From NCBI GenBank assembly GCA_001917735.1, contig MNEO01000020.1, forward strand, positions 1-21,875: a DNA stretch of 21,875 bases, written 5' to 3'. Source of the stretch: Chloroflexi bacterium 13_1_40CM_68_21 (GTDB taxonomy: Bacteria; Chloroflexota; Limnocylindria; P2-11E). Shown piece by piece: positions 2,491-21,875 of the stretch (its first letter is position 1; each line of letters starts with the position of its first letter). Below the pieces are notes generated by a model. The model saw nothing but the letters and a program-made list of their open reading frames with translations. It was not told the DNA's origin and did no database searches. The position numbers and the translations under genes were made by a program.

Positions 2491-3399
2491 TTATCCGGCT
2501 CGCTTCGAGGCGGAAACCTTCGACCCACGCTTACGTTTGGCCGCCTCGACACTCGCCCGGAGCGCGTCCATCAAATCGCCGATACGACTCTCACCGGTCG
2601 CCTCGATCGTCTCCACCTGCGCCGCCGGCGTTTTGCTTCTCAAAAGAGCCAGGAGCTCCTCGCGGTAGGCGTCCGCGTGACTCGACGGAGACCACGCCGT
2701 CGCCATCGCGCTGATGAGCTGGCGAGCGGTCTTCACCTCCCGGTCCGAAACTGCGAGATCCGAGAGGCCGAACGTCAGCGCCTCAGCGCTTCGCACCTCG
2801 TCGCCGAAGAACAACGTCTCGAGCGCGAGTGCTTTCTCCAGCGGGCGAACGGCGACGATGTGCGGCCTGGTCCGAAGCACGAAGCGGCCGATCCCGGCCA
2901 TCCCAGCGGCCTGCATGGCCCGAAGGAGAAGGACGTACGGCTTCTCCGCTCCGACGCCGCGAGCTGGACCAACGTGATAGCTCTTCTCGAAGAAAACGGG
3001 ATCGATCTCCGCCAGATCCACGAATTCCTCGATCTCGATCGTCCGGCTCCGCTCGGGGGCGATCGAGAGGAGCTCGTCGTCGGTCACCGTCACGAGGTCG
3101 CCGCCGGGGAGCTCCCACCCTCTCACCACATCTTCGGACTCGACAGGCTGCGCCGCGACGGTCGATCCGCTGAACGGCGCCGGATCAGTCCGGTCGAGAG
3201 GCCACGACTCGGGAGAGGGCTCCGCCTCGAACGTCGCCGGCTCCTCGTCGCGCGTCACGCGTTCGTAGCGCACCCGCTTGCCCGTACGGCGGTCGTAGAG
3301 ATGGAAACGAACGTCTTTCGGCTCGGTGGCTGGGTAGAGCTTTACCGGAATGCTCACGAGCCCAAAACTGATGCTGCCGGTCCAGACCGCTTGAGTCAT
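2491..3399 (-). CDS. ku: Ku protein (first copy), non-homologous end joining
   Basis: A 302-residue bacterial Ku, the homodimeric ring that binds double-strand DNA ends and recruits LigD. The start at ATG 3399 gives the family N-terminus MTQAVWTGSISFGLVSIPVK, with a GGGGGGCGG tract just upstream. The 77 residues of open frame before it are low-complexity and overlap the upstream kinase, so they are not coding. The C-terminal tail is lysine/arginine-rich (KRKRGSK), as in many bacterial Ku proteins where it aids DNA binding. It lies 46 nt downstream of a histidine kinase gene on the same strand, so co-transcription with that two-component system is likely. A second, clearly different Ku lies at 18130-18969. 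Confidence 0.93.
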   Translation of the reverse strand: MTQAVWTGSISFGLVSIPVKLYPATEPKDVRFHLYDRRTGKRVRYERVTRDEEPATFEAEPSPESWPLDRTDPAPFSGSTVAAQPVESEDVVRGWELPGGDLVTVTDDELLSIAPERSRTIEIEEFVDLAEIDPVFFEKSYHVGPARGVGAEKPYVLLLRAMQAAGMAGIGRFVLRTRPHIVAVRPLEKALALETLFFGDEVRSAEALTFGLSDLAVSDREVKTARQLISAMATAWSPSSHADAYREELLALLRSKTPAAQVETIEATGESRIGDLMDALRASVEAAKRKRGSKVSASKRAG

Positions 3400-3445
3400 C
3401 CGCCGCCCCCCACTCCCGATCGGGAAGTGCTCTCGCCCGATTCTC

Positions 3446-4543
3446 TCAGGAATTAGGTGGTGCGGCCATCGTGGTCCGACGTGGCGAGATCGGTAGTGAG
3501 AACCAGAAGCGCGTGAGACCCGAGGCGGATTCCGCGCCCACTCTGCCGCCCCCGAGCTCGACGAGCTGCTTGACGATGGCGAGCCCGATGCCGGCCCCAC
3601 CCCGAGAGCGGTCGCGCGACTTCTCGACACGGTAGAAGCGCTCGAAGATGCGCGGCAGATCGGGTGACGGGATCTCGTCGCCGGTGTTCGTGACGGCGAC
3701 GACTATGTCCCAGTCGTGGCGTTCGGCGGTGATGGTCACCCTGCCGCCATCGGGGGTGTAGCGGACCGCGTTCTGAAGGAGATTGGCGAGCACCTGAGCG
3801 AGGTGATCGGGATTCGCGCGAGCCCGCAGCCCGGTCGGCACGCGCACTTCAAGCGCAACCCCGCGCCGCTCGAGCGCGGGCGATGCGAGCTCGACGGACA
3901 TGGCGACGGCGCCGTAGACGTCCAGGTCGTCCAGGCGCGGCGGTCCCCAATCGAGATCACCGTCGGCGAGAGCGTCGAGGGAGCGCGCGAGCCGCACGAG
4001 GCGATCGACCTCCTCGTGGAGCGACGCGAACGACTCGCGGCTCGGCGGAACCACGCCGTCGCGAAGTGCTTCCAGATAGCCTTGCAAATTCGTCAGGGGC
4101 GTACGCAGCTCGTGAGCCGCGTTCGTGATGAAGTCCGCTCGCTCGCGCGCGTGCTCCTCGAGTCGCTCGGTCATCTGGTTGAACGAATTGGCGAGCGAGA
4201 TGATCTCCTCCGGACCCTCCGCGGAAACACGCACGCCCAGGTCGCCCTCGGCAACACGGTGCGCGGCCCCGCGGATACGAAGGAGCGGCGCGGCCAGCCA
4301 GCGCCCGGTGACGACAGCGAGCACGACGCTGGCGAGCGCGGCGCCCAAAACGGCGGCCGTCAGCGCGCCACCGACGGATTCATTGAACATCTCACGCGCG
4401 GTGGCGACGGACTCTCCGTGCTCCTGCATCAGCTGCTCGAAGGCGCTGCCGCCCGCGATGACGACGCCGATCGTGACTATGGCGATCGCGGACGCCGCCA
4501 CCGCGAGGGCGCCGAGCGCGATGCGCGCGCCAACGCCGCTCAC
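3446..4543 (-). CDS. Sensor histidine kinase (HAMP-HisKA-HATPase)
   Basis: A 365-residue membrane kinase. Two transmembrane helices are seen (about residues 7-31 and 58-80) with only a short extracytoplasmic loop between them, so it probably senses within or near the membrane. A HAMP segment follows. The phosphoacceptor is His144 in the H-box AAHELRTP. The ATP-binding lobe has an N-box (NLLQNAVRYTP), an F-box region (FERFYRVEKSRDRSRGG) and a G-box (GAGIGLAIVKQL). Its ATG overlaps the stop of the response regulator by 4 nt (ATGA), so the two are translationally coupled. Ku follows after 46 nt. The signal cannot be told from sequence. Confidence 0.93.
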   Translation of the reverse strand: MSGVGARIALGALAVAASAIAIVTIGVVIAGGSAFEQLMQEHGESVATAREMFNESVGGALTAAVLGAALASVVLAVVTGRWLAAPLLRIRGAAHRVAEGDLGVRVSAEGPEEIISLANSFNQMTERLEEHARERADFITNAAHELRTPLTNLQGYLEALRDGVVPPSRESFASLHEEVDRLVRLARSLDALADGDLDWGPPRLDDLDVYGAVAMSVELASPALERRGVALEVRVPTGLRARANPDHLAQVLANLLQNAVRYTPDGGRVTITAERHDWDIVVAVTNTGDEIPSPDLPRIFERFYRVEKSRDRSRGGAGIGLAIVKQLVELGGGRVGAESASGLTRFWFSLPISPRRTTMAAPPNS

Positions 4544-5247
4544 GAGACGAGGGCGCGGTACCCGACGCCGCGGACGGTCGCCACGTAGCGCGACGCCTCA
4601 GCCGTGTCGCCGAGCCGTTCCCGGAGGCGCCGCACGTAAACGTCAATGGTGCGGTCGACCGCGTCGCCGTCCGCCGCGCCGTAGAGCGTGTCGAGCAGCA
4701 TGTCACGCGAGAGCACCCGTCCCGCCGCCTGCACGAGCGCGACGAGGAGACGGAACTCGATATCGGATAGCACCAGCCGCTCGCCACCGCGGAACACCTC
4801 GTGCCGCTCCCGATCGATCGTCAGATCGTCGAGCCGAAGGAGCTCATGGGCAGGGGCCGGCGCGGACGTTCGCCGCAGTATCGCTTTGACGCGCACGACG
4901 AGCTCGGCCGGGGAGAAGGGCTTGGTCACGTAGTCATCGGCTCCCTCCGCGATCGCGTGGACACGATCGGCGACGGAGCCTCGCGCGGAGAGCATGAGGA
5001 TGGGCACGTCGGACTCCTCACGGACGCGGCGGGCGACCGAGAGGCCGTCGAGCTCGGGGAGCATGACGTCGAGGACGATGAGCCTCGGCCGATGCTGCCG
5101 CACCGCCGCGAGGGCGGCGATGCCGTCGCCCGCGCTCGCGACCGCGAAGCCCTCGCGCTCGAGGTACGCCCTGACGAGCTGCGCGATCTTCGGGTCGTCA
5201 TCCACGACGAGGATCGGTCCCTTCTCGGAGCTCGTTATGGCTCTCAT
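4540..5247 (-). CDS. OmpR/PhoB-family response regulator
   Basis: A 235-residue regulator. The receiver domain has the acidic pocket (VVDDDP), the phosphorylated Asp60 in VLDVMLPELDG, and the conserved YVTKPF lysine. The C-terminal winged-helix DNA-binding domain ends in VDVYVRRLRERLG-type and VRGVGYR motifs typical of OmpR proteins. The start at ATG 5247 places the receiver near the N-terminus; the 111 upstream in-frame residues are non-conserved and overlap the divergent gene. It is the first gene of a probable regulator-kinase-Ku operon. Two GTGAC half-sites 11 nt apart in its own promoter region (5270-5285) suggest autoregulation and control of the divergent secreted-protein gene. Confidence 0.93.
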   Translation of the reverse strand: MRAITSSEKGPILVVDDDPKIAQLVRAYLEREGFAVASAGDGIAALAAVRQHRPRLIVLDVMLPELDGLSVARRVREESDVPILMLSARGSVADRVHAIAEGADDYVTKPFSPAELVVRVKAILRRTSAPAPAHELLRLDDLTIDRERHEVFRGGERLVLSDIEFRLLVALVQAAGRVLSRDMLLDTLYGAADGDAVDRTIDVYVRRLRERLGDTAEASRYVATVRGVGYRALVS

Positions 5248-5269
5248 GACACGAGTTTCCCGGCTGATT

Positions 5270-5285
5270 GTGACGGTGGCGTGAC
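5270..5285. promoter_or_regulatory. Candidate response-regulator operator (11-nt-spaced direct repeat)
   Basis: GTGAC occurs at 5270-5274 and again at 5281-5285, start to start 11 nt, in the 102-nt region between the divergent response regulator and secreted-protein genes. OmpR/PhoB-family dimers bind tandem half-sites with this spacing. The site lies 23 nt upstream of the regulator's start codon, so autoregulation is possible. This is pattern recognition only. Confidence 0.35.
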
Positions 5286-5349
5286 AGCGAGTCATCGCCC
5301 TGCAATGGCACGCAGCGACGCTGGCGCCGATAACGATCGGAGGTGACCC

Positions 5350-5730
5350 ATGCATAAGCTCATCGCCAGCGCGTTGCTCGCGGCCGCCAGCCTCACGAGC
5401 ACGGCCTCGCCCGCCCTCGCCGACAGCCCGGTGGATCGCGGCACCATCTGGCTCGACGGCGTTCAGGTACGCACGCTCCTTCCGCCGTCCGCTTTCCCCA
5501 ACGAAGGGCGCGACGGCTTCTACCGGGTCCCGGGTACCGGGGGCGTCGCGGCCGTCGGCCCCGGTAGCGGTGACTACCACGGGGGCGCGTGGAAGGTCTT
5601 CGACGTGACCTGGAGCGTCGCGCCGTATCCGCTCACATCGGCGGGGGCCGTCCTCGCGGCCGCGGCCGCCGGCAAGGTGACCATCACGAGGAACGCGAGC
5701 GCGGATTTCCGTTGCCCGATCCAGCCATAG
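5350..5730 (+). CDS. Small secreted protein of unknown function
   Basis: A 126-residue protein with a good start (CGGAGGTGACCC before the ATG) and a clear signal peptide, residues 1 to about 24, ending SPALA before DSPVDRG. The mature part is short, rich in Gly, Ala and Val, with one cysteine near the C-terminus (FRCPIQP). I recognise no domain. It is transcribed divergently from the first two-component operon, and its 3' end overlaps the start of the DM13-domain gene, so both are probably made together at the cell envelope. A regulator target role for this pair is an inference from position only. Confidence 0.75.
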   Translation: MHKLIASALLAAASLTSTASPALADSPVDRGTIWLDGVQVRTLLPPSAFPNEGRDGFYRVPGTGGVAAVGPGSGDYHGGAWKVFDVTWSVAPYPLTSAGAVLAAAAAGKVTITRNASADFRCPIQP

Positions 5731-6218
5731 AGCGCGCGAGCGCCAGGGCCGGCGGTCGTCCGGCCCTGGCGAAAATCATCGGCGCGATCGCGATCGTCGG
5801 TGCGATCACGGTGCCGCTCGTCGGGTATGTGATCGTCCCCGCGCTTGTGCGGTCGACCTTGGTCGAGGATCTTCCACTCGCGACCGGGCCGAGCCTCCAG
5901 ACGCTCGGTCAGGGCGAGCTCGTCCGCATCAACGCCGCGGACTACGGGAGCGGCAACGTGCGGATCGTGAAGGTGGGCGACGATCGACTCCTGCGCTTCG
6001 AGGGCGTCGACATCGCCGGGGCACCGGACATGTATGTCTACCTCTCCGACCAGGTCAACGGGCGGCCCGGCGCGTTCGTCGACCTCGGCAAGCTCAAGGC
6101 GACGAACGGGTCGTTCAACTACCCGATTCCGGTGAGCGTCGACCTCGCGACGATCCGCTCGGTTGTGATCTGGTGCCGCCAGTTCAGCGTGACGGTCACG
6201 TACGCGACTCTCGGATAG
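5712..6218 (+). CDS. Membrane-anchored DM13-domain protein
   Basis: With the TTG start at 5712 this is 168 residues: a short basic N-terminus, one transmembrane helix (about residues 20-45) and an extracytoplasmic DM13 domain. DM13 is suggested by the order GQGELVRI, VGDDRLLRFEGVDIAGAPDMYVYL, LGKLKATNGSFNYPIP and the terminal VVIWCRQFSV with Cys155. DM13 domains are thought to carry out redox or electron-transfer reactions at the cell surface through this cysteine. The start is uncertain: the frame is open back to 5589, but that stretch overlaps the preceding gene. TTG 5712 is the only plausible codon before the membrane helix, giving a 19-nt overlap and coupled translation. There is no strong ribosome binding site. 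Confidence 0.75.
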   Translation: MPDPAIERASARAGGRPALAKIIGAIAIVGAITVPLVGYVIVPALVRSTLVEDLPLATGPSLQTLGQGELVRINAADYGSGNVRIVKVGDDRLLRFEGVDIAGAPDMYVYLSDQVNGRPGAFVDLGKLKATNGSFNYPIPVSVDLATIRSVVIWCRQFSVTVTYATLG

Positions 6219-6246: not shown

Positions 6247-6939
6247 TTAGGAACCCCGCAGCTTCAGCGTCGCGAGCCCGTGCTTCATGTAGTCCTGCGC
6301 GATCGCGCGGTACGTGGCGACGTCCTTCTGCAAGCGTTGGTCCTCGGCGAAGCGCTCACCGATCGCCTCGAGCGCGAAGTTGACGCCACGCATGTACGGC
6401 GGGAGATGTTCGAGAGGGAAAGGAGTGCGGCCCGTGTCGGCCGGCTGGCGGGGTCCGGGCGGCAACGGATCCGAGCGCAGCTCTTTGCGTGGTGAGTCTT
6501 TCACGGTCTCGAGCGCATCGAGAAGCTCCTTCGTGAGCGGCCTGTCGGCGAAGTCGCGTCCGATGTAGCGGTACGCCATGGAGAGGTCGCGCCCGACGAC
6601 GAACGCCGCGGGTCGGGCGCGCTGTTCCTTCTCGCGGTACACGCCGTACGCGGCGATCACGCTCGCCTCCGGATCCGCGAGCATCGGGAACGGCAGAGAG
6701 AGCTTCGCGACCATGGCCTTGTTGCGCGCGACATCGTCGACTGAGATGCCCACGACAGTCCCACGTCGGCTCGTGAACTCCTCGTACTGCCGCCCGCAGC
6801 TGACCAGCTGCCCGTTGCAGTATGGTCACCAGTCCCCGCGCAGGAAGAGAAGCACGACGGAATCGCCGAGGTGTTCTGAGAGTCGCCAGGGTCGACCCAT
6901 GTCGTCAGCGAGCGCGAAGTCGAGCGGAAGCTGGGGCAC
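6247..6939 (-). CDS. Selenocysteine-containing peroxiredoxin-like protein (in-frame UGA at 6826-6828)
   Basis: Read through one UGA, this is a 230-residue AhpC/TSA-type thioredoxin-fold protein. From GTG 6939 the frame gives MPQLPLDFALADDMGRPW, then VVLLFLRGDW-UGA-PYCNGQLVSC, then VVGISVDD and FPMLADPE, all in peroxiredoxin order. Cys-containing relatives have DWCPYC here, so residue 38 (UGA) replaces the peroxidatic cysteine, and Cys41 could form a selenenylsulfide. Neighbouring tryptophans use TGG and UGA ends other genes in the window, so recoding as Sec fits best. A SECIS-like hairpin follows directly. An in-frame TAG at 6949-6951 limits the start to GTG 6939 or ATG 6900; neither has a strong ribosome binding site. 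Residues about 147-230 form an extension of unknown role. A truncated reading from GTG 6753 lacks the active site. It lies 60 nt behind the PstS-like gene. Confidence 0.85.
6785..6828 (-). promoter_or_regulatory. Bacterial SECIS-like hairpin following the UGA codon
   Basis: On the minus strand UGA is at 6828-6826. UACUGC (6822-6817) pairs with GCAGUA (6790-6785), and GCAGCU (6811-6806) pairs with AGCUGC (6801-6796), with apical loop GGUC at 6805-6802. The loop starts after 20 nt from the UGA, within the distance accepted for bacterial SECIS elements. From memory, the E. coli fdhF element has a similar GGUC loop on a short stem at nearly the same distance. SelB binds this loop to deliver Sec-tRNA. 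Confidence 0.75.
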
Positions 6940-6999
6940 GAGCCAAAACTAGACGATGAGCGCTAGGTGCCGCACGTCATACCGCCGTTCCCGGCGATG

Positions 7000-13013: not shown

Positions 13014-13562
13014 CTAGCGCAGCAGGCTGTCGAGCCAGCGTGCCGCGGCTGCGACCGCCTCCTGCTCGGCTGGTCCGAAATCGTGGCCGGCTCCCGCGAT
13101 CGGCACGAGGTCGATCCGGGGGTTCCGGCCGGCGATGCGTTCGAGGACGGCGAGCGGCCCGAGCTCGTCGTGCTCTCCCTGGACGACGAGGGTCGGGCAC
13201 ACGATCGCGGCGAGCGCCGCCTCATCCCGGGGGCGGGGCCGCGCTGGCGGCGCGATCGGATGACCGAGGATCACGAGCGCGTCGGGCGGCTCCCGCTCCG
13301 CGAGGAACGCACACATGCGGCCGCCGAACGACCGCCCGACGAGCGCGACACGCTCCGCTCCCGCGTCACGCAGAGCGTCGCGTGCGTTGCGAACATCCTC
13401 TATCTCAAGGGCGTAGTCCTTGCTCGGCCGCGATCCACGCGTCCGAAACGTGACTGCCTGGGTGTCGATGCCAAACGCGCCGAGCGCCGACGCAAGCGCG
13501 CGCAAGAGCGGCTGTTCCGCCGTGCCGCCGTAACCCGGCGCGAGGACGGCGGCGCGGTTCAA
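13014..13562 (-). CDS. Small alpha/beta-hydrolase (dienelactone-hydrolase/KANL3-Tex30-like)
   Basis: 182 residues with the full catalytic triad in order: nucleophile Ser78 in GRSFGG, an acid Asp in VQGEHDELG, and His in GAGHDFG near the C-terminus. The oxyanion-hole region PGYGG is near the N-terminus. It is a compact cytoplasmic hydrolase without a lid domain. Substrate unknown. The start is TTG 13562, which overlaps the LigD stop as TTGA (4 nt), so translation is coupled to LigD. The functional reason for this coupling is not known. The 84-nt gap after it separates it from the small membrane protein gene. Confidence 0.85.
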   Translation of the reverse strand: MNRAAVLAPGYGGTAEQPLLRALASALGAFGIDTQAVTFRTRGSRPSKDYALEIEDVRNARDALRDAGAERVALVGRSFGGRMCAFLAEREPPDALVILGHPIAPPARPRPRDEAALAAIVCPTLVVQGEHDELGPLAVLERIAGRNPRIDLVPIAGAGHDFGPAEQEAVAAAARWLDSLLR

Positions 13563-15949
13563 GCGGGCGGCTTCGGCAGCTTCTGCGTGAGCTCGAGCGA
13601 GGGCGTCAGGAGGTCGCCCACTGATTCGAGGCGCGTGGCCATGTTGGCGATCGTGAACGCATCCGGCCGACCGAGCGACGAGATCTCCTCCCAGCGCAGT
13701 GGCGCGGAGACCGGGGCTCGGCGGATGGGCCGCACGCTGTACGGTCCCGCGGTCGACTTCATGCGCACGTTCTGCAAGTAGTCGATGTAGATGCCACGCC
13801 GGCGGGCCTTCGAAAACTCGAGCGTCACGAGCTTCGGGAGCCGCTCGCGCGCGAGCTCTCCCACGCGGAGCGCGAACGCGCGCGTCTCCTCGAACGTGTA
13901 TCGGCGAGCGACCGGCACGAGCACGTGGATGCCGCGCGATCCAGTGGTCTTGGGGAACCCCACCAGCCCGAAGTCGTCGAGCACCGTCTTAACGGTCCGC
14001 GCGACTTCCTTGACGTCGTCCCACGTCGCGCCCTCCGCGGGATCGAGGTCGATCATCACGTTGTCCGGATTGTCCGGCAGGTCGATCCGCGCGAGGCGCG
14101 GGTGCAGCTCGATCGCGGTGTAGTTCGCGAGCCAGACGAGCGTGGCCATGTCGTTCGCGAGCACGTAGTCGTTGTCCGGCTCGTGGGGGTCTTTCCAGCT
14201 CTTGATCCAGCGCGGGGTGAAGTCGGGCTTGTCCTTCTGGTAGAAGCTCTGCCCGGCGATGCCGTCGGGGAATGGCTTCATCGTGAGCGGCCGGTCGCGC
14301 AGCCACGGCACCAGGTACGGTGAGACCTCCGCGTAGTAGCGGATGAGGTCGGCCTTGGTGTAGCCGTCCTCGGGCCAGAGCACCTTCTGGAGATTCGTGA
14401 GCTTGATCCGGTGCCCCTCGACCTCCAGCACTGCGGGCACCCGTTCGGGTCCCTCGCCGTTGCCGGACGCGGGCCTCGCCACGGCGGCCTTCTTCGCGGC
14501 TTCCTGCGCGCGCTTGGCCGTTTCGCGACGCTCCTCGCCGGTGCATTCGCGAGGATCGACGTCCGGTCGCAGGCCGCGATAGGTCGGGTGCCGCAATGTG
14601 CCGTCGCGCGTGATCTCCGCGTACTCGACCTCGCACACGAGCTCGGGCATGCACCAGCGCGCCGGCTGATTCGTGCGCGGCAGCGTCGCGAACGGCGCCG
14701 TCGGCGACTCGTGCCGCTGAAGCGTCGCGAGGAGATCACGGAGAGTTCGTTCGTCAAAGCCGGTCCCGACATGACCGACCGGCTCCAGCTTGCCGTCGCG
14801 ATAGACGCCGAGGAGCAGCGCGCCGAGGGTGCTCGCGCGGCCACCCTGTCCGGCGGTCCACCCGCCGATCACGCAGTCCATCGTTCGCATCGCTTTCACT
14901 TTCACCCAGGCGGGCGAGCGCGCGCCGGGCTGATAGATGGAGTCGAGGCGCTTGGCGATGATCCCTTCGATCCCCTGCTCCTTCGCCGCGTCGAACAGCG
15001 CGACGCCGGTCCCGACGAAGCCGTCACTGCGACGGATCGCGCCCATCGGCGTGAGCGCTTCGTCGAGCCTGCGCAGGCGCTCGCGCAGCGGCCTGTGGGT
15101 CAGATCCTCGCCGTCGACGTACAGAAGATCGAACACTTCGTAGATGGCCGGCGTCGATCGCCGGAGCTTGCGAACCGTGGCGTCGTCGCTCACGTGCATC
15201 CGCGGCTGCAGCCGCTGGAAGCTCGGGACGCCTTTCTCGTCGAGCGCGACGATCTCGCCATCGACGATCGCCTGATACGCGCCGGTGAGCGCCTCGGCGA
15301 TTTGCGTGCCCTCGGGGTACTGCCGCGTGCAATCGAGGAGGTTGCGGGTCTGCAGGCGCACCTCGCCCCCGTCGACGAAAGCGATCGTCCGCACGCCGTC
15401 CCACTTGGCCTCGTAGGTGAACTCTGGCGAGTCGAATGGCTCGTCCGCCGCCGCCGCAAGCATCGGCGCGATCTTCCCAAGTAGAGGATCGTTCTTGGGC
15501 GGCGTGCCGTGCTTGATCATCAGCCAGTCACGCCCTTCGTTCTGGCGGGTCTTCACGAGGACCCATTCGCCCTGCAGGCGCTTGCCCGCGAAGCGGAGCT
15601 TGAGCTCGTCGTCCTTCTCCTCGAGGAGCTCGTACGTGCCGCTATCCCAGATCGTCATCGTTCCGGCGCCGTAGCCGTCCGGGATCACGCCGTGAAAGGT
15701 GAGGTACTCGATCGGATGGTCTTCGGTGTGCACCGCGAGTCGCCTCTTGCCGGCCTCGAGCGGCGGACCGTTCGGCACCGCCCACGATGCGAGGATGCCC
15801 CGGATCTCGAGACGCACGTCCCAATGAAGGCGCGTCGCATGGTGGCGATGGACCACATAGCGACGCGTCTCTTCGGTCTTCGGCTGCTTGCCCTTTGGTT
15901 CGGGCGTGCGGCGGAAGTCGCGTTTGCGCTGGTAGTCGGTGAGGCTCAC
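13559..15949 (-). CDS. ligD: Multifunctional DNA ligase D (PE-Lig-Pol), end joining
   Basis: A 796-residue LigD with all three activities used in bacterial end joining. Residues about 1-150 are the 3'-phosphoesterase (His36, His42, Asp44 and Arg46 in HRHHATRLHWDVRLE). Residues about 160-460 are the ATP-dependent ligase with the adenylated Lys182 in EAKWDGVR. Residues about 520-790 are the primase-type polymerase with metal-binding Asp634 and Asp636 in MIDLDPAEG and a TTGSRGIHV motif. The domain order PE-Lig-Pol is that of Pseudomonas LigD, not the mycobacterial order. The start at GTG 15949 (VSLTDYQRKRDF) has GAAGG 7 nt before it; an in-frame codon at 15997 would overlap the divergent gene. 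Ku genes at 2491 and 18130 are its expected partners. Confidence 0.94.
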   Translation of the reverse strand: MSLTDYQRKRDFRRTPEPKGKQPKTEETRRYVVHRHHATRLHWDVRLEIRGILASWAVPNGPPLEAGKRRLAVHTEDHPIEYLTFHGVIPDGYGAGTMTIWDSGTYELLEEKDDELKLRFAGKRLQGEWVLVKTRQNEGRDWLMIKHGTPPKNDPLLGKIAPMLAAAADEPFDSPEFTYEAKWDGVRTIAFVDGGEVRLQTRNLLDCTRQYPEGTQIAEALTGAYQAIVDGEIVALDEKGVPSFQRLQPRMHVSDDATVRKLRRSTPAIYEVFDLLYVDGEDLTHRPLRERLRRLDEALTPMGAIRRSDGFVGTGVALFDAAKEQGIEGIIAKRLDSIYQPGARSPAWVKVKAMRTMDCVIGGWTAGQGGRASTLGALLLGVYRDGKLEPVGHVGTGFDERTLRDLLATLQRHESPTAPFATLPRTNQPARWCMPELVCEVEYAEITRDGTLRHPTYRGLRPDVDPRECTGEERRETAKRAQEAAKKAAVARPASGNGEGPERVPAVLEVEGHRIKLTNLQKVLWPEDGYTKADLIRYYAEVSPYLVPWLRDRPLTMKPFPDGIAGQSFYQKDKPDFTPRWIKSWKDPHEPDNDYVLANDMATLVWLANYTAIELHPRLARIDLPDNPDNVMIDLDPAEGATWDDVKEVARTVKTVLDDFGLVGFPKTTGSRGIHVLVPVARRYTFEETRAFALRVGELARERLPKLVTLEFSKARRRGIYIDYLQNVRMKSTAGPYSVRPIRRAPVSAPLRWEEISSLGRPDAFTIANMATRLESVGDLLTPSLELTQKLPKPPA

Positions 15950-15984
15950 TCTGTGACCTTCGCCATTGTCGTGGAGGTCGCTCC

Positions 15985-17616
15985 GTGGCGTCCGCATCCT
16001 TCTCGGCGCTGGTCAAGGATTACCTCACCGAGCAGTACGACGAATCGCCCTCCTGGGCGAGCATGCTCGGCCTCACGGCGTATGACGGGCGGTCTGAGGA
16101 CCTGTCCGCCGAGGCGTTCCACCGGCGTGAGGCCCGGGTTCTCGACTGGACCGGGCGCTTCCGCGCGGCCCCCGACGCAGAGCTCTCGGACGACGAGCGC
16201 ATCGACCGCGACGTCGTGCTCTCGTCGCTTCGCGGACGCGAGCTCACTCAGCCGCGCCTCGATTGGAAGCGCCAGCCGAACATCTATCTGAACCCTTCGC
16301 TCGGCGGGGTGTTCACGCTCTTCCTGCACCGCCTCCGACCTGAGCGCGATCTCGCCGACGCGGCGCGGGCGCGGCTGCTCGCTGCCACTCGCCACGTCGC
16401 TGACGGCAAGGCGAACCTCGATTTCTCGCTGATGCCGCGGGTGTACGTCGACCGAGCCATCAGCCAGGCGAAGGCCGCGGCGCGTTATGCGCGGGAGCTC
16501 GTGCCCGCGGAGGTCAAGGACGCGACGGTCCGGCAGAAGGTCGCCGAAGCCGGGGCGACCGCCGCGGGGGCGTACGAGGATTTCGCCGCGTTCCTCGAAA
16601 CGAACAAAGAGCGTTCTTCAGGCGAGTACGCGATCGGCGAGGAGCTCTACACCGCGCTCCTCAGGGAAAAGGAGCTGCTGCCCTACGGGGCGCGCGAGCT
16701 CCGCGAACGCGGCCGCGAGCAGTACGAGCTCCTGACGAACGAAGCCAACAAGATCGCGAGCCAGATCGACGGTGGAGGCGATTGGGTCCAGGTATGCGAG
16801 CGCCTCAATCAGATCCATGCGCCGACACCCGATGCGATGCGTGCCGAGTACGAGGACTGGACCGACCGCGCTCGGTCATTTCTCAAGGACTCCAACCTCG
16901 TGACCCTTCCGCCCGGCGAGCGCTGCACGGTCGAGCCGTCGCCGCACTTCCAGCGGCCGATCCTGGCGGTCGCGAGCTACAACCAGCCACCCGCCTTCAG
17001 CGATTCGCTCCACGGACACTTCTTCGTGCCCTACCCCCCGGACAACACCCCGCCGGACGAGGTGCGGAAGCGGCTCGAAGGAAACTGCAGCGCCGGGATC
17101 CCGACGACGGCCGTGCACGAGGCTTATCCGGGCCACCACTGGCACCTCGTGATGGCGAAGCAGAATCGCTCTGCGGTCCGGCGGACCCACTTCACGTCGT
17201 ACTTCGCCGAAGGCTGGGGCCTCTACGCCGAGCGCGTCATGCGCGAACAGGGTTTCTTCAGCGATCCGCGCCACCTGCTGTTCCAGTACGAAGCCACGCT
17301 ATTCCGCGCAGCGCGCATCGTCGTCGACACCTCGCTGCACCTTGGCGAGATGAGTTTCGGCGAGGCCGTCGAGTTCATGGTCAGGAAAGGCAACCTCACG
17401 CCGCCGAACGCGAAGGCCGAGGTCGGCCGCTACTGCTCCTGGCCGACCCAGGCATCGAGCTACCTCACCGGGATGCTCGAGATCGTCGACATCCGGACGC
17501 GCTGGCTCGCCAAGCACGGATCGGCCGACCGGGCCGCGTTGCGTGCCTTTCACGACGCGATCACGTCGAGCGGGTCGATCCCCACGTCGCTGGCGGAGCG
17601 CGCGATCGCCAACTAG
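15985..17616 (+). CDS. DUF885-family zinc metallopeptidase-like protein
   Basis: 543 residues, close to the usual size of DUF885 proteins, mostly helical. The family zinc motif is present as HEAYPGHHWH (His378, Glu379, His384, His385), followed by a YFAEGWGLYAERV segment that supplies the downstream glutamate. These proteins resemble gluzincin/M3-like peptidases, but the substrates of most members are unknown. There is no signal peptide, so it is probably cytoplasmic. Start GTG 15985 follows GGAGG with 8-nt spacing. It diverges from LigD with only 35 nt between start codons, so their promoters must overlap. DUF1232 follows 3 nt after the stop. Confidence 0.87.
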   Translation: MASASFSALVKDYLTEQYDESPSWASMLGLTAYDGRSEDLSAEAFHRREARVLDWTGRFRAAPDAELSDDERIDRDVVLSSLRGRELTQPRLDWKRQPNIYLNPSLGGVFTLFLHRLRPERDLADAARARLLAATRHVADGKANLDFSLMPRVYVDRAISQAKAAARYARELVPAEVKDATVRQKVAEAGATAAGAYEDFAAFLETNKERSSGEYAIGEELYTALLREKELLPYGARELRERGREQYELLTNEANKIASQIDGGGDWVQVCERLNQIHAPTPDAMRAEYEDWTDRARSFLKDSNLVTLPPGERCTVEPSPHFQRPILAVASYNQPPAFSDSLHGHFFVPYPPDNTPPDEVRKRLEGNCSAGIPTTAVHEAYPGHHWHLVMAKQNRSAVRRTHFTSYFAEGWGLYAERVMREQGFFSDPRHLLFQYEATLFRAARIVVDTSLHLGEMSFGEAVEFMVRKGNLTPPNAKAEVGRYCSWPTQASSYLTGMLEIVDIRTRWLAKHGSADRAALRAFHDAITSSGSIPTSLAERAIAN

Positions 17617-18129: not shown

Positions 18130-18969
18130 ATGCCACGTTCGATCTGGCGCGGTGTCATGAGCTTCGGTATGGTCGCGATCCCGGTCCGCCTGTACCTGGC
18201 GACCGAGAGCACCAGCAAGGTGTCGTTCAACCTGCTCTGCCCGGAACACAAGAGCCGCATCAAGAACAAGCGCTGGTGCGTCGAGGGCGATCACGAGGTC
18301 GCGTGGGGCGACGTCGTGCGCGGGTACGAGTATGAGAAGGGGAGCTACGTCGAGCTCACAGACGAGGATCTGGAGAAGCTCCCACTCCGATCGAGCAAGG
18401 CGATCGACATCTCAGGGTTCGTGAAGGACGAGGAGCTCCCTGGAGCCCTCTATTTCCAGTCGTCCTACTACCTCGAGCCCGAAAAGTCGGCCGAGAAGCC
18501 CTACGCCCTGCTCAACAAGACCCTCCAGAAGACCGGGCGCATCGCCATCGCCAAGTTCGCGCTGCGCGACCGCGAGCGGCTCGTGTCCGTTCGCCCGCAG
18601 GATGGGGCGTTGCTCATGAACACGCTCCATTGGCCGGACGAGATCCGTTCGACCGAGGATCTCGATGTTCCGGAGGACGTGAAGGTCTCCCCTGCCGAGC
18701 TCAAGATGGCCGAGAACCTGGTGAACATGATGGCGACCGAGTTCGAGCCGCAGGAGTACAAGGACGAATACAAGGAAGCGGTCATGAAGCTGGTCGAGGC
18801 GAAGGTCGAGAAGCGCGAGATCATCGAGGCCCCCGAGCCAGAGACCGAGACGACCGTCGTCGACCTCATGTCCGCGCTCAAGGCGTCCGTCGAGAAGGCC
18901 AAGAAGGGCGAGGCAAAGACGAAGCGCGCGGCATCGTCGTCGCGCGCCGCGAGAAAGAAGGCTTCCTAG
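18130..18969 (+). CDS. ku: Ku protein (second copy), non-homologous end joining
   Basis: A 279-residue Ku with the family start MPRSIWRGVMSFGMVAIPVR and ribosome binding site GAGGTG before ATG 18130. It forms the DNA-end-binding ring. Compared with the first Ku (2491-3399) it has a Cys/His-containing segment (Cys37, His40, Cys50, His55 in LLCPEHK...RWCVEGDH) that may bind a metal; the first Ku has Arg/Tyr residues there instead. The lysine/alanine-rich tail (KKGEAKTKRAASSSRAARKK) is DNA-binding in related proteins. The ATP-dependent ligase gene follows after 49 nt, so a Ku-ligase operon is likely. Two diverged Ku proteins could form homodimers or a heterodimer. Confidence 0.94.
   Translation: MPRSIWRGVMSFGMVAIPVRLYLATESTSKVSFNLLCPEHKSRIKNKRWCVEGDHEVAWGDVVRGYEYEKGSYVELTDEDLEKLPLRSSKAIDISGFVKDEELPGALYFQSSYYLEPEKSAEKPYALLNKTLQKTGRIAIAKFALRDRERLVSVRPQDGALLMNTLHWPDEIRSTEDLDVPEDVKVSPAELKMAENLVNMMATEFEPQEYKDEYKEAVMKLVEAKVEKREIIEAPEPETETTVVDLMSALKASVEKAKKGEAKTKRAASSSRAARKKAS

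Positions 18970-19018: not shown

Positions 19019-21875
<2,857 letters not shown>

Follow-up and report, generated by a model that had tools for sequence, protein, structure and literature searches.

A predicted selenocysteine-containing UxxC protein on a peroxiredoxin fold in a Chloroflexota bacterium

The locus and its reading frame

We analyzed a 21,875-nucleotide stretch of DNA, here called the window, from the soil bacterium Chloroflexi bacterium 13_1_40CM_68_21 (contig MNEO01000020.1 of assembly GCA_001917735.1). The subject is a minus-strand gene that is interrupted by one in-frame UGA and that very likely encodes a selenocysteine (Sec)-containing, peroxiredoxin-like protein. The features of the gene are as follows.

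6247..6939, minus strand: predicted selenoprotein gene of 230 residues, with Sec at residue 38, a GTG start, a TAA stop and PF00578 at residues 7-122
6826..6828, minus strand: in-frame UGA, read as Sec38, the first residue of UxxC (D-W-U-P-Y-C); TGA stands at the same column in other copies
6817..6819, minus strand: Cys41, the second residue of UxxC, aligned with the peroxidatic Cys column of classical peroxiredoxins
6796..6811, minus strand: candidate bacterial Sec insertion sequence (SECIS) hairpin GCAGCU-GGUC-AGCUGC, its loop beginning 20 bases past the UGA
6751..6753, minus strand: internal GTG, the start of a 168-residue open reading frame (ORF), where the truncated database protein P0002 also begins
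6610..6612, minus strand: Pro110, aligned with the catalytic Arg column of peroxiredoxins
6253..6414, minus strand: C-terminal extension, residues 176-229, a helical hairpin beyond the peroxiredoxin fold predicted in the AlphaFold2 model

The initial annotation of this DNA, made from the letters alone, had described one frame from GTG 6939 to 6247 with a single UGA. Direct reading with TGA translated as U bore this out: between GTG 6939 and TAA 6249-6247 the sole internal stop was TGA 6828-6826, U was residue 38 and the product had 230 residues. The frame opens just three codons above GTG 6939, at position 6948 after a TAG, and the candidate starts ahead of the UGA are GTG 6939, ATG 6900 and GTG 6855. 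At the point equivalent to the start, the two closest relatives have ATG (L001/L022) and GTG (L002). Without readthrough the ORF comprises 168 residues from GTG 6753, as the same annotation had proposed; this part lacks the UxxC active site and is identical to database entry P0002. Analysis of the read-through protein revealed a match to AhpC-TSA (PF00578; 2e-28, 99.2 bits against a cut-off of 26) over residues 7-122. Because this match spans the UGA, and because further genomes also have a UGA at this position of the alignment, the frame is not a product of chance.

The UGA column in homologues

To read this column, copies of the gene were sought in 177 genomes of the class and 400 genomes of the phylum, and the codon was recorded for those returned as loci (30 from the class search, 30 from the phylum search, plus L003). 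Class-search loci below the profile cut-off (L038, L042, L043, L045-L047 and L049) were left out, the repeats L064 and L070 were dropped, and L027 stops short of the column. Profile alignment covered 52 other distinct copies. Of these, 24 copies from 23 genomes have TGA, 15 have a Cys codon, 13 encode Ser or Thr, and neither TAA nor TAG occurs, with a slight bias towards TGA because that codon entered the alignment as Cys and the other two stops as X. The 15 Cys copies include several distant ones, such as L035 and L039 with CPKD. Public metagenome-assembled genomes (MAGs) with an in-frame TGA at the same place comprised two Chloroflexi (L001 and L002) and one Rhodospirillaceae MAG (L003). No relatives were found in viral contigs.

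Database proteins gave a corresponding picture. The active-site motif was present in none of the best 63 (P0002-P0064) of 103 protein homologues; 62 of these begin downstream of the active site, and the head of P0064 is unrelated. Since the site is missing from all 63 of these closest database relatives, the protein cannot be recognized through them as a redox enzyme. Database protein P0096 terminates exactly at RGDW, and DWCPYC was found in Cys homologues such as P0065, P0067, P0068, P0070 and P0071. The earlier proposals that the UGA occupies the first Cys of DWCPYC in Cys-containing relatives, and that a selenoprotein had been hidden through truncation by gene finding, agree with these data.

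Further observations were made on individual copies. P0096 consists of a CBS domain running straight into the N-terminal part of the family and ending at the UGA, possibly a fusion or a mis-chosen start. L027, from genome G130, which has tRNA-Sec, is a headless copy: its alignment begins near profile position 81, and the sequence ahead of that point is unrelated. As far as the two were compared it matches P0064, whose contig has 27,844 bases; L027 is thus at the end of a contig, and faulty assembly may account for it. More distant peroxiredoxin-like genes of the phylum that have TGA in the Sec38 column (L078, L079, L081-L085) carry the motifs FUGIC, WUIYC, LUPHC, WUTAC, WUTTC, WUPPC, WUTFC and CUGPD. 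The last of these is that of L084, where Asp replaces the second Cys and the motif offers no partner Cys. In genome G187 two distant UGA copies are separated by 0.6 kb, and a third match to the family lies about 1.3 kb before them. In L067, L068, L069 and L072 a match to residues 170-228 of the window protein lies just downstream in a frame different from that of the peroxiredoxin part, and in three of them (L067, L068 and L072) an in-frame stop precedes it; the split part may be a separate gene or reflect a frameshift or assembly error.

Selection on codons ahead of the UGA

For codons 2-37, ahead of the UGA, comparison with the two closest relatives gave ratios of nonsynonymous to synonymous substitution (dN/dS) of 0.20 and 0.22; past GTG 6753 the same comparisons gave 0.18 and 0.13. 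Across all 15 pairs of six sequences, the ratio ahead of the UGA ranged from 0.11 to 0.68. These values indicate that the codons ahead of the UGA evolve as protein-coding sequence under purifying selection.

Active site and fold

Alignment with classical peroxiredoxins placed residue 38 with the Ser/Thr of SxxC/TxxC and Cys41 with the peroxidatic Cys, so that U38-P-Y-C41 stands where those proteins have S/TxxC, and UxxC replaces TxxC or TxxU. The initial annotation had put the UGA at the peroxidatic cysteine itself; the alignment rules this out and moves the UGA to the Ser/Thr three residues earlier. The peroxiredoxin Pro is replaced by Arg34 and the catalytic Arg by Pro110, each common to 11 of the 12 rows of alignment A4. 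The residues corresponding to the canonical signature (PxxxT/SxxC plus a distant Arg) are accordingly Arg34, Sec38, Cys41 and Pro110, with the Cys alone kept. The AlphaFold2 model had a mean pLDDT (per-residue model confidence) of 90.7 and positioned Sec38 just before an alpha helix. The structural matches listed cover residues 1-151; none was listed over the C-terminal hairpin, which was searched only as part of the full model. The alignment and the model point to a thioredoxin-like UxxC site on a peroxiredoxin fold.

A candidate SECIS hairpin

A SECIS-like feature is present just downstream of the UGA, in the form of a hairpin with a small apical loop containing G. The loop of E. coli fdhF likewise contains GGUC. 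According to the consulted part of the 2005 Sargasso Sea paper (PMC1088965), bacterial SECIS elements commonly have a small apical loop with a guanosine. When the best hairpin of each copy was compared, its loop lay at +20/+21 in 17 of 25 UGA sequences versus 0 of 15 Cys sequences (Fisher P = 1.2e-5), a criterion picked after the hairpins had been seen and a P value uncorrected for kinship among related sequences. Paired positions co-vary in places; in L083 and L084, for example, A-U takes the place of one G-C pair. The folding energy of the UGA group was also shifted relative to the Cys group (mean z of -0.73 versus +0.28, P = 0.003). An Rfam scan of the window gave no match at the gathering score.

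Sec machinery in relatives

The Sec machinery was examined in the genomes of relatives. Among genomes with a UGA copy, tRNA-Sec scored above cut-off in 20 of 23, with anticodon UCA in all seven checked with ARAGORN. When SelB was sought in 16 of them, 15 scored above cut-off, among these the three without a tRNA-Sec match; of 10 tested, SelA and SelD were each above cut-off in 8. One in-frame TGA, counted regardless of position, is held by seven of these eight SelD genes, which fits the known existence of Sec-containing SelD. All four components are present in G001 and G002, relatives whose CTP synthases are 93% and 97% identical, respectively, to that of the window. Of the genes that the initial annotation had proposed to look for, tRNA-Sec and SelB were found in the genomes of relatives. 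In G178 and G070, two members of the class in which the column is Cys, no tRNA-Sec scored above cut-off, and neither SelB nor SelA was matched under the thresholds applied; G070 has a SelD without TGA.

Interpretation and alternatives

Taken together, these data favor a gene encoding a Sec-containing UxxC protein, to which we assign a probability of about 94%; this figure concerns the protein and leaves its substrate aside. The product would be a peroxiredoxin-fold redox protein of a Chloroflexota bacterium, in which the hairpin shortly after the UGA would direct SelB and Sec-tRNA(UCA) to decode that codon as Sec. Sec38 would then act as the attacking selenolate, reducing a disulfide or peroxide and becoming linked to Cys41 through an Se-S bond that could be reduced by thioredoxin or a comparable donor.

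A number of observations count against this reading, as does the choice of the loop criterion described above. The folding energy of the window copy was not significant under synonymous-codon randomisation (z = -1.09, P = 0.16). Six UGA sequences (L065, L067-L069, L071 and L072) pair at three or fewer of six positions in the two common registers, in which two Cys sequences pair at five of six and one Ser/Thr sequence at all six. The host's own complete genome lies outside the data on Sec machinery, and G149 gave no SelB or SelA match. tRNA-Sec was found in 305 of the 400 phylum genomes and also in eight of nine further Cys-form genomes. The contrast offered by G178 and G070 therefore fails to hold across the phylum, and co-occurrence with tRNA-Sec is weak evidence by itself, since tRNA-Sec is both common in the phylum and present in most Cys-form genomes. 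Finally, no close copy of the gene was found in some genomes that by CTP synthase are as close to the window as G001, such as G132 (96% identity), G133 and G135. A close copy is either absent from these or missing from their assemblies, and the gene is patchy.

The chemistry of such a protein can be read in two ways. Since the peroxiredoxin Pro, Thr and Arg are lost, thiol:disulfide oxidoreductase activity appears likelier than classical peroxidase chemistry, a preference drawn from sequence comparison and held with some reserve. A selenoprotein that is nonetheless a classical peroxidase, with Cys41 peroxidatic and Sec38 accessory or resolving, is an unlikely though serious alternative; it must contend with the replacement of the residues that assist the peroxidatic Cys by Arg34, Sec38 and Pro110, two of them near-constant in alignment A4.

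It is very improbable that some other suppressor tRNA, or a changed genetic code, places Cys or any further amino acid than Sec at the UGA. Special tRNAs could in principle read UGA as Cys, and homologues do carry Cys at the column. Each UCA-anticodon tRNA in the 18 loci scanned with ARAGORN (loci, as distinct from whole genomes) was, however, named tRNA-SeC. A code change was rejected on the grounds that TGA terminates 10 of the 14 Pfam-supported window genes among 27 ORFs scanned, and its low likelihood had already been noted in the initial annotation. Of the TGA-terminated genes cited there, LigD, a PstS-like protein and CTP synthase were recovered and UbiA was not found among the 27 ORFs, which are not every ORF of the window. 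The consulted portion of a paper on RNA-dependent Cys synthesis (PMC5424206) makes no mention of UGA.

Least probable of all is a pseudogene or sequencing error, with the UGA a broken Cys codon and the gene dead or only its 168-residue part made: the plain ORF does cover that part alone and relative L027 is headless, albeit at a contig end, but the same UGA recurs in 24 other copies with TAA or TAG in none, codons 2-37 have a dN/dS of 0.20-0.22 where they would be untranslated, and the 168-residue part has no UxxC active site, and we rejected this explanation on the recurrent UGA column and the constraint ahead of it.

Relation to known selenoproteins

A Sec-containing UxxC protein of this type would have described counterparts. 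Table 1 of a 2026 paper lists peroxiredoxin-like thiol:disulfide oxidoreductase selenoproteins (PF00578, UxxC), together with a cd02970 UxxS family and a redoxin UxxC family (PMC13188914). In the parts of the sources consulted, peroxiredoxin-like UxxC groups are described in marine surveys (PMC1088965, PMC2398784) and peroxiredoxin-like thiol:disulfide oxidoreductases are counted in PMC5029168. The window protein shares with these predicted bacterial selenoproteins (PMC13188914, PMC1088965) PF00578 and a thioredoxin-like UxxC in place of TxxU. The window group is set apart by D-W-U-P-Y-C and the C-terminal helical hairpin, in a comparison where the published set is known by description only.

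Other families are less close. The Sec peroxiredoxin with TxxU (PrxU) shares the peroxiredoxin fold and an active-site Sec; according to the consulted part of PMC13188914 its Sec is catalytic and follows PxxxTxx, whereas the Sec of the window protein stands at the Thr position. Against the PrxU model NF040737 the window protein scored 39.4, with a cut-off of 270. The second-best NCBIfam match was the SelL-related redox protein model NF040769, a peroxiredoxin-like family named after a selenoprotein (43.4 bits, cut-off 120); the SelL motif is UxxU and that of the window protein UxxC. None of the 13 NCBIfam models matched reached its own cut-off, and membership in them was rejected. Bcp/PrxQ and AhpE peroxiredoxins (3hjp, 2cx3 and 1xxu) differ from the window protein in having S/TxxC with Pro and Arg in the compared columns and no Sec. 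In eukaryotic SelU the motif opens with Sec on an AhpC/TSA-type fold. This arrangement is shared by the cd02970 UxxS selenoprotein as listed in PMC13188914, whose motif ends in Ser, that of the window protein ending in Cys.

The literature search found no paper joining UPYC with selenoproteins, and among the titles listed that join selenoproteins with Chloroflexi or Chloroflexota none on the present family. The UxxC peroxiredoxin-like kind is already described, and the window protein is a new, unannotated member of it; its group is probably an unnamed subfamily of this known kind. We lean towards a distinct, unnamed Chloroflexota selenoprotein subfamily, with W-U-[PS]-Y-C, a thioredoxin-type site on a peroxiredoxin fold (Pro for the catalytic Arg) and a helical hairpin conserved at the C terminus, within a larger phylum set of related UGA genes (FUGIC, WUIYC, WUTAC, LUPHC, WUPPC and others) cut at the UGA by annotation. 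It would add a selenoprotein group to a phylum whose selenoproteins are treated in no title found. The family also offers a natural comparison of Sec, Cys and Ser at one position of one fold, and hence of what Sec buys in a UxxC site.

Gene neighborhood

The features adjoining the gene are as follows.

5589..6218, plus strand: DM13-domain gene, convergent with the predicted selenoprotein gene with 28 bases between them; adjoins the gene in L001 and L002 too
3446..5580, minus strand: histidine kinase (3446-4543) and response regulator (4540-5580), in an order shared with L002

The order of selenoprotein gene, convergent DM13 gene, response regulator and histidine kinase is kept in L002, and L001 keeps the DM13 neighbor. 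Elsewhere in the window, end-joining repair genes lie at 2491-3630 and 13559-15997 on the minus strand and at 18130-18969 and 19019-20284 on the plus strand. Within 18 kb these make up a doubled end-joining repair set of two Ku genes, a three-domain LigD and a second ATP-dependent DNA ligase.
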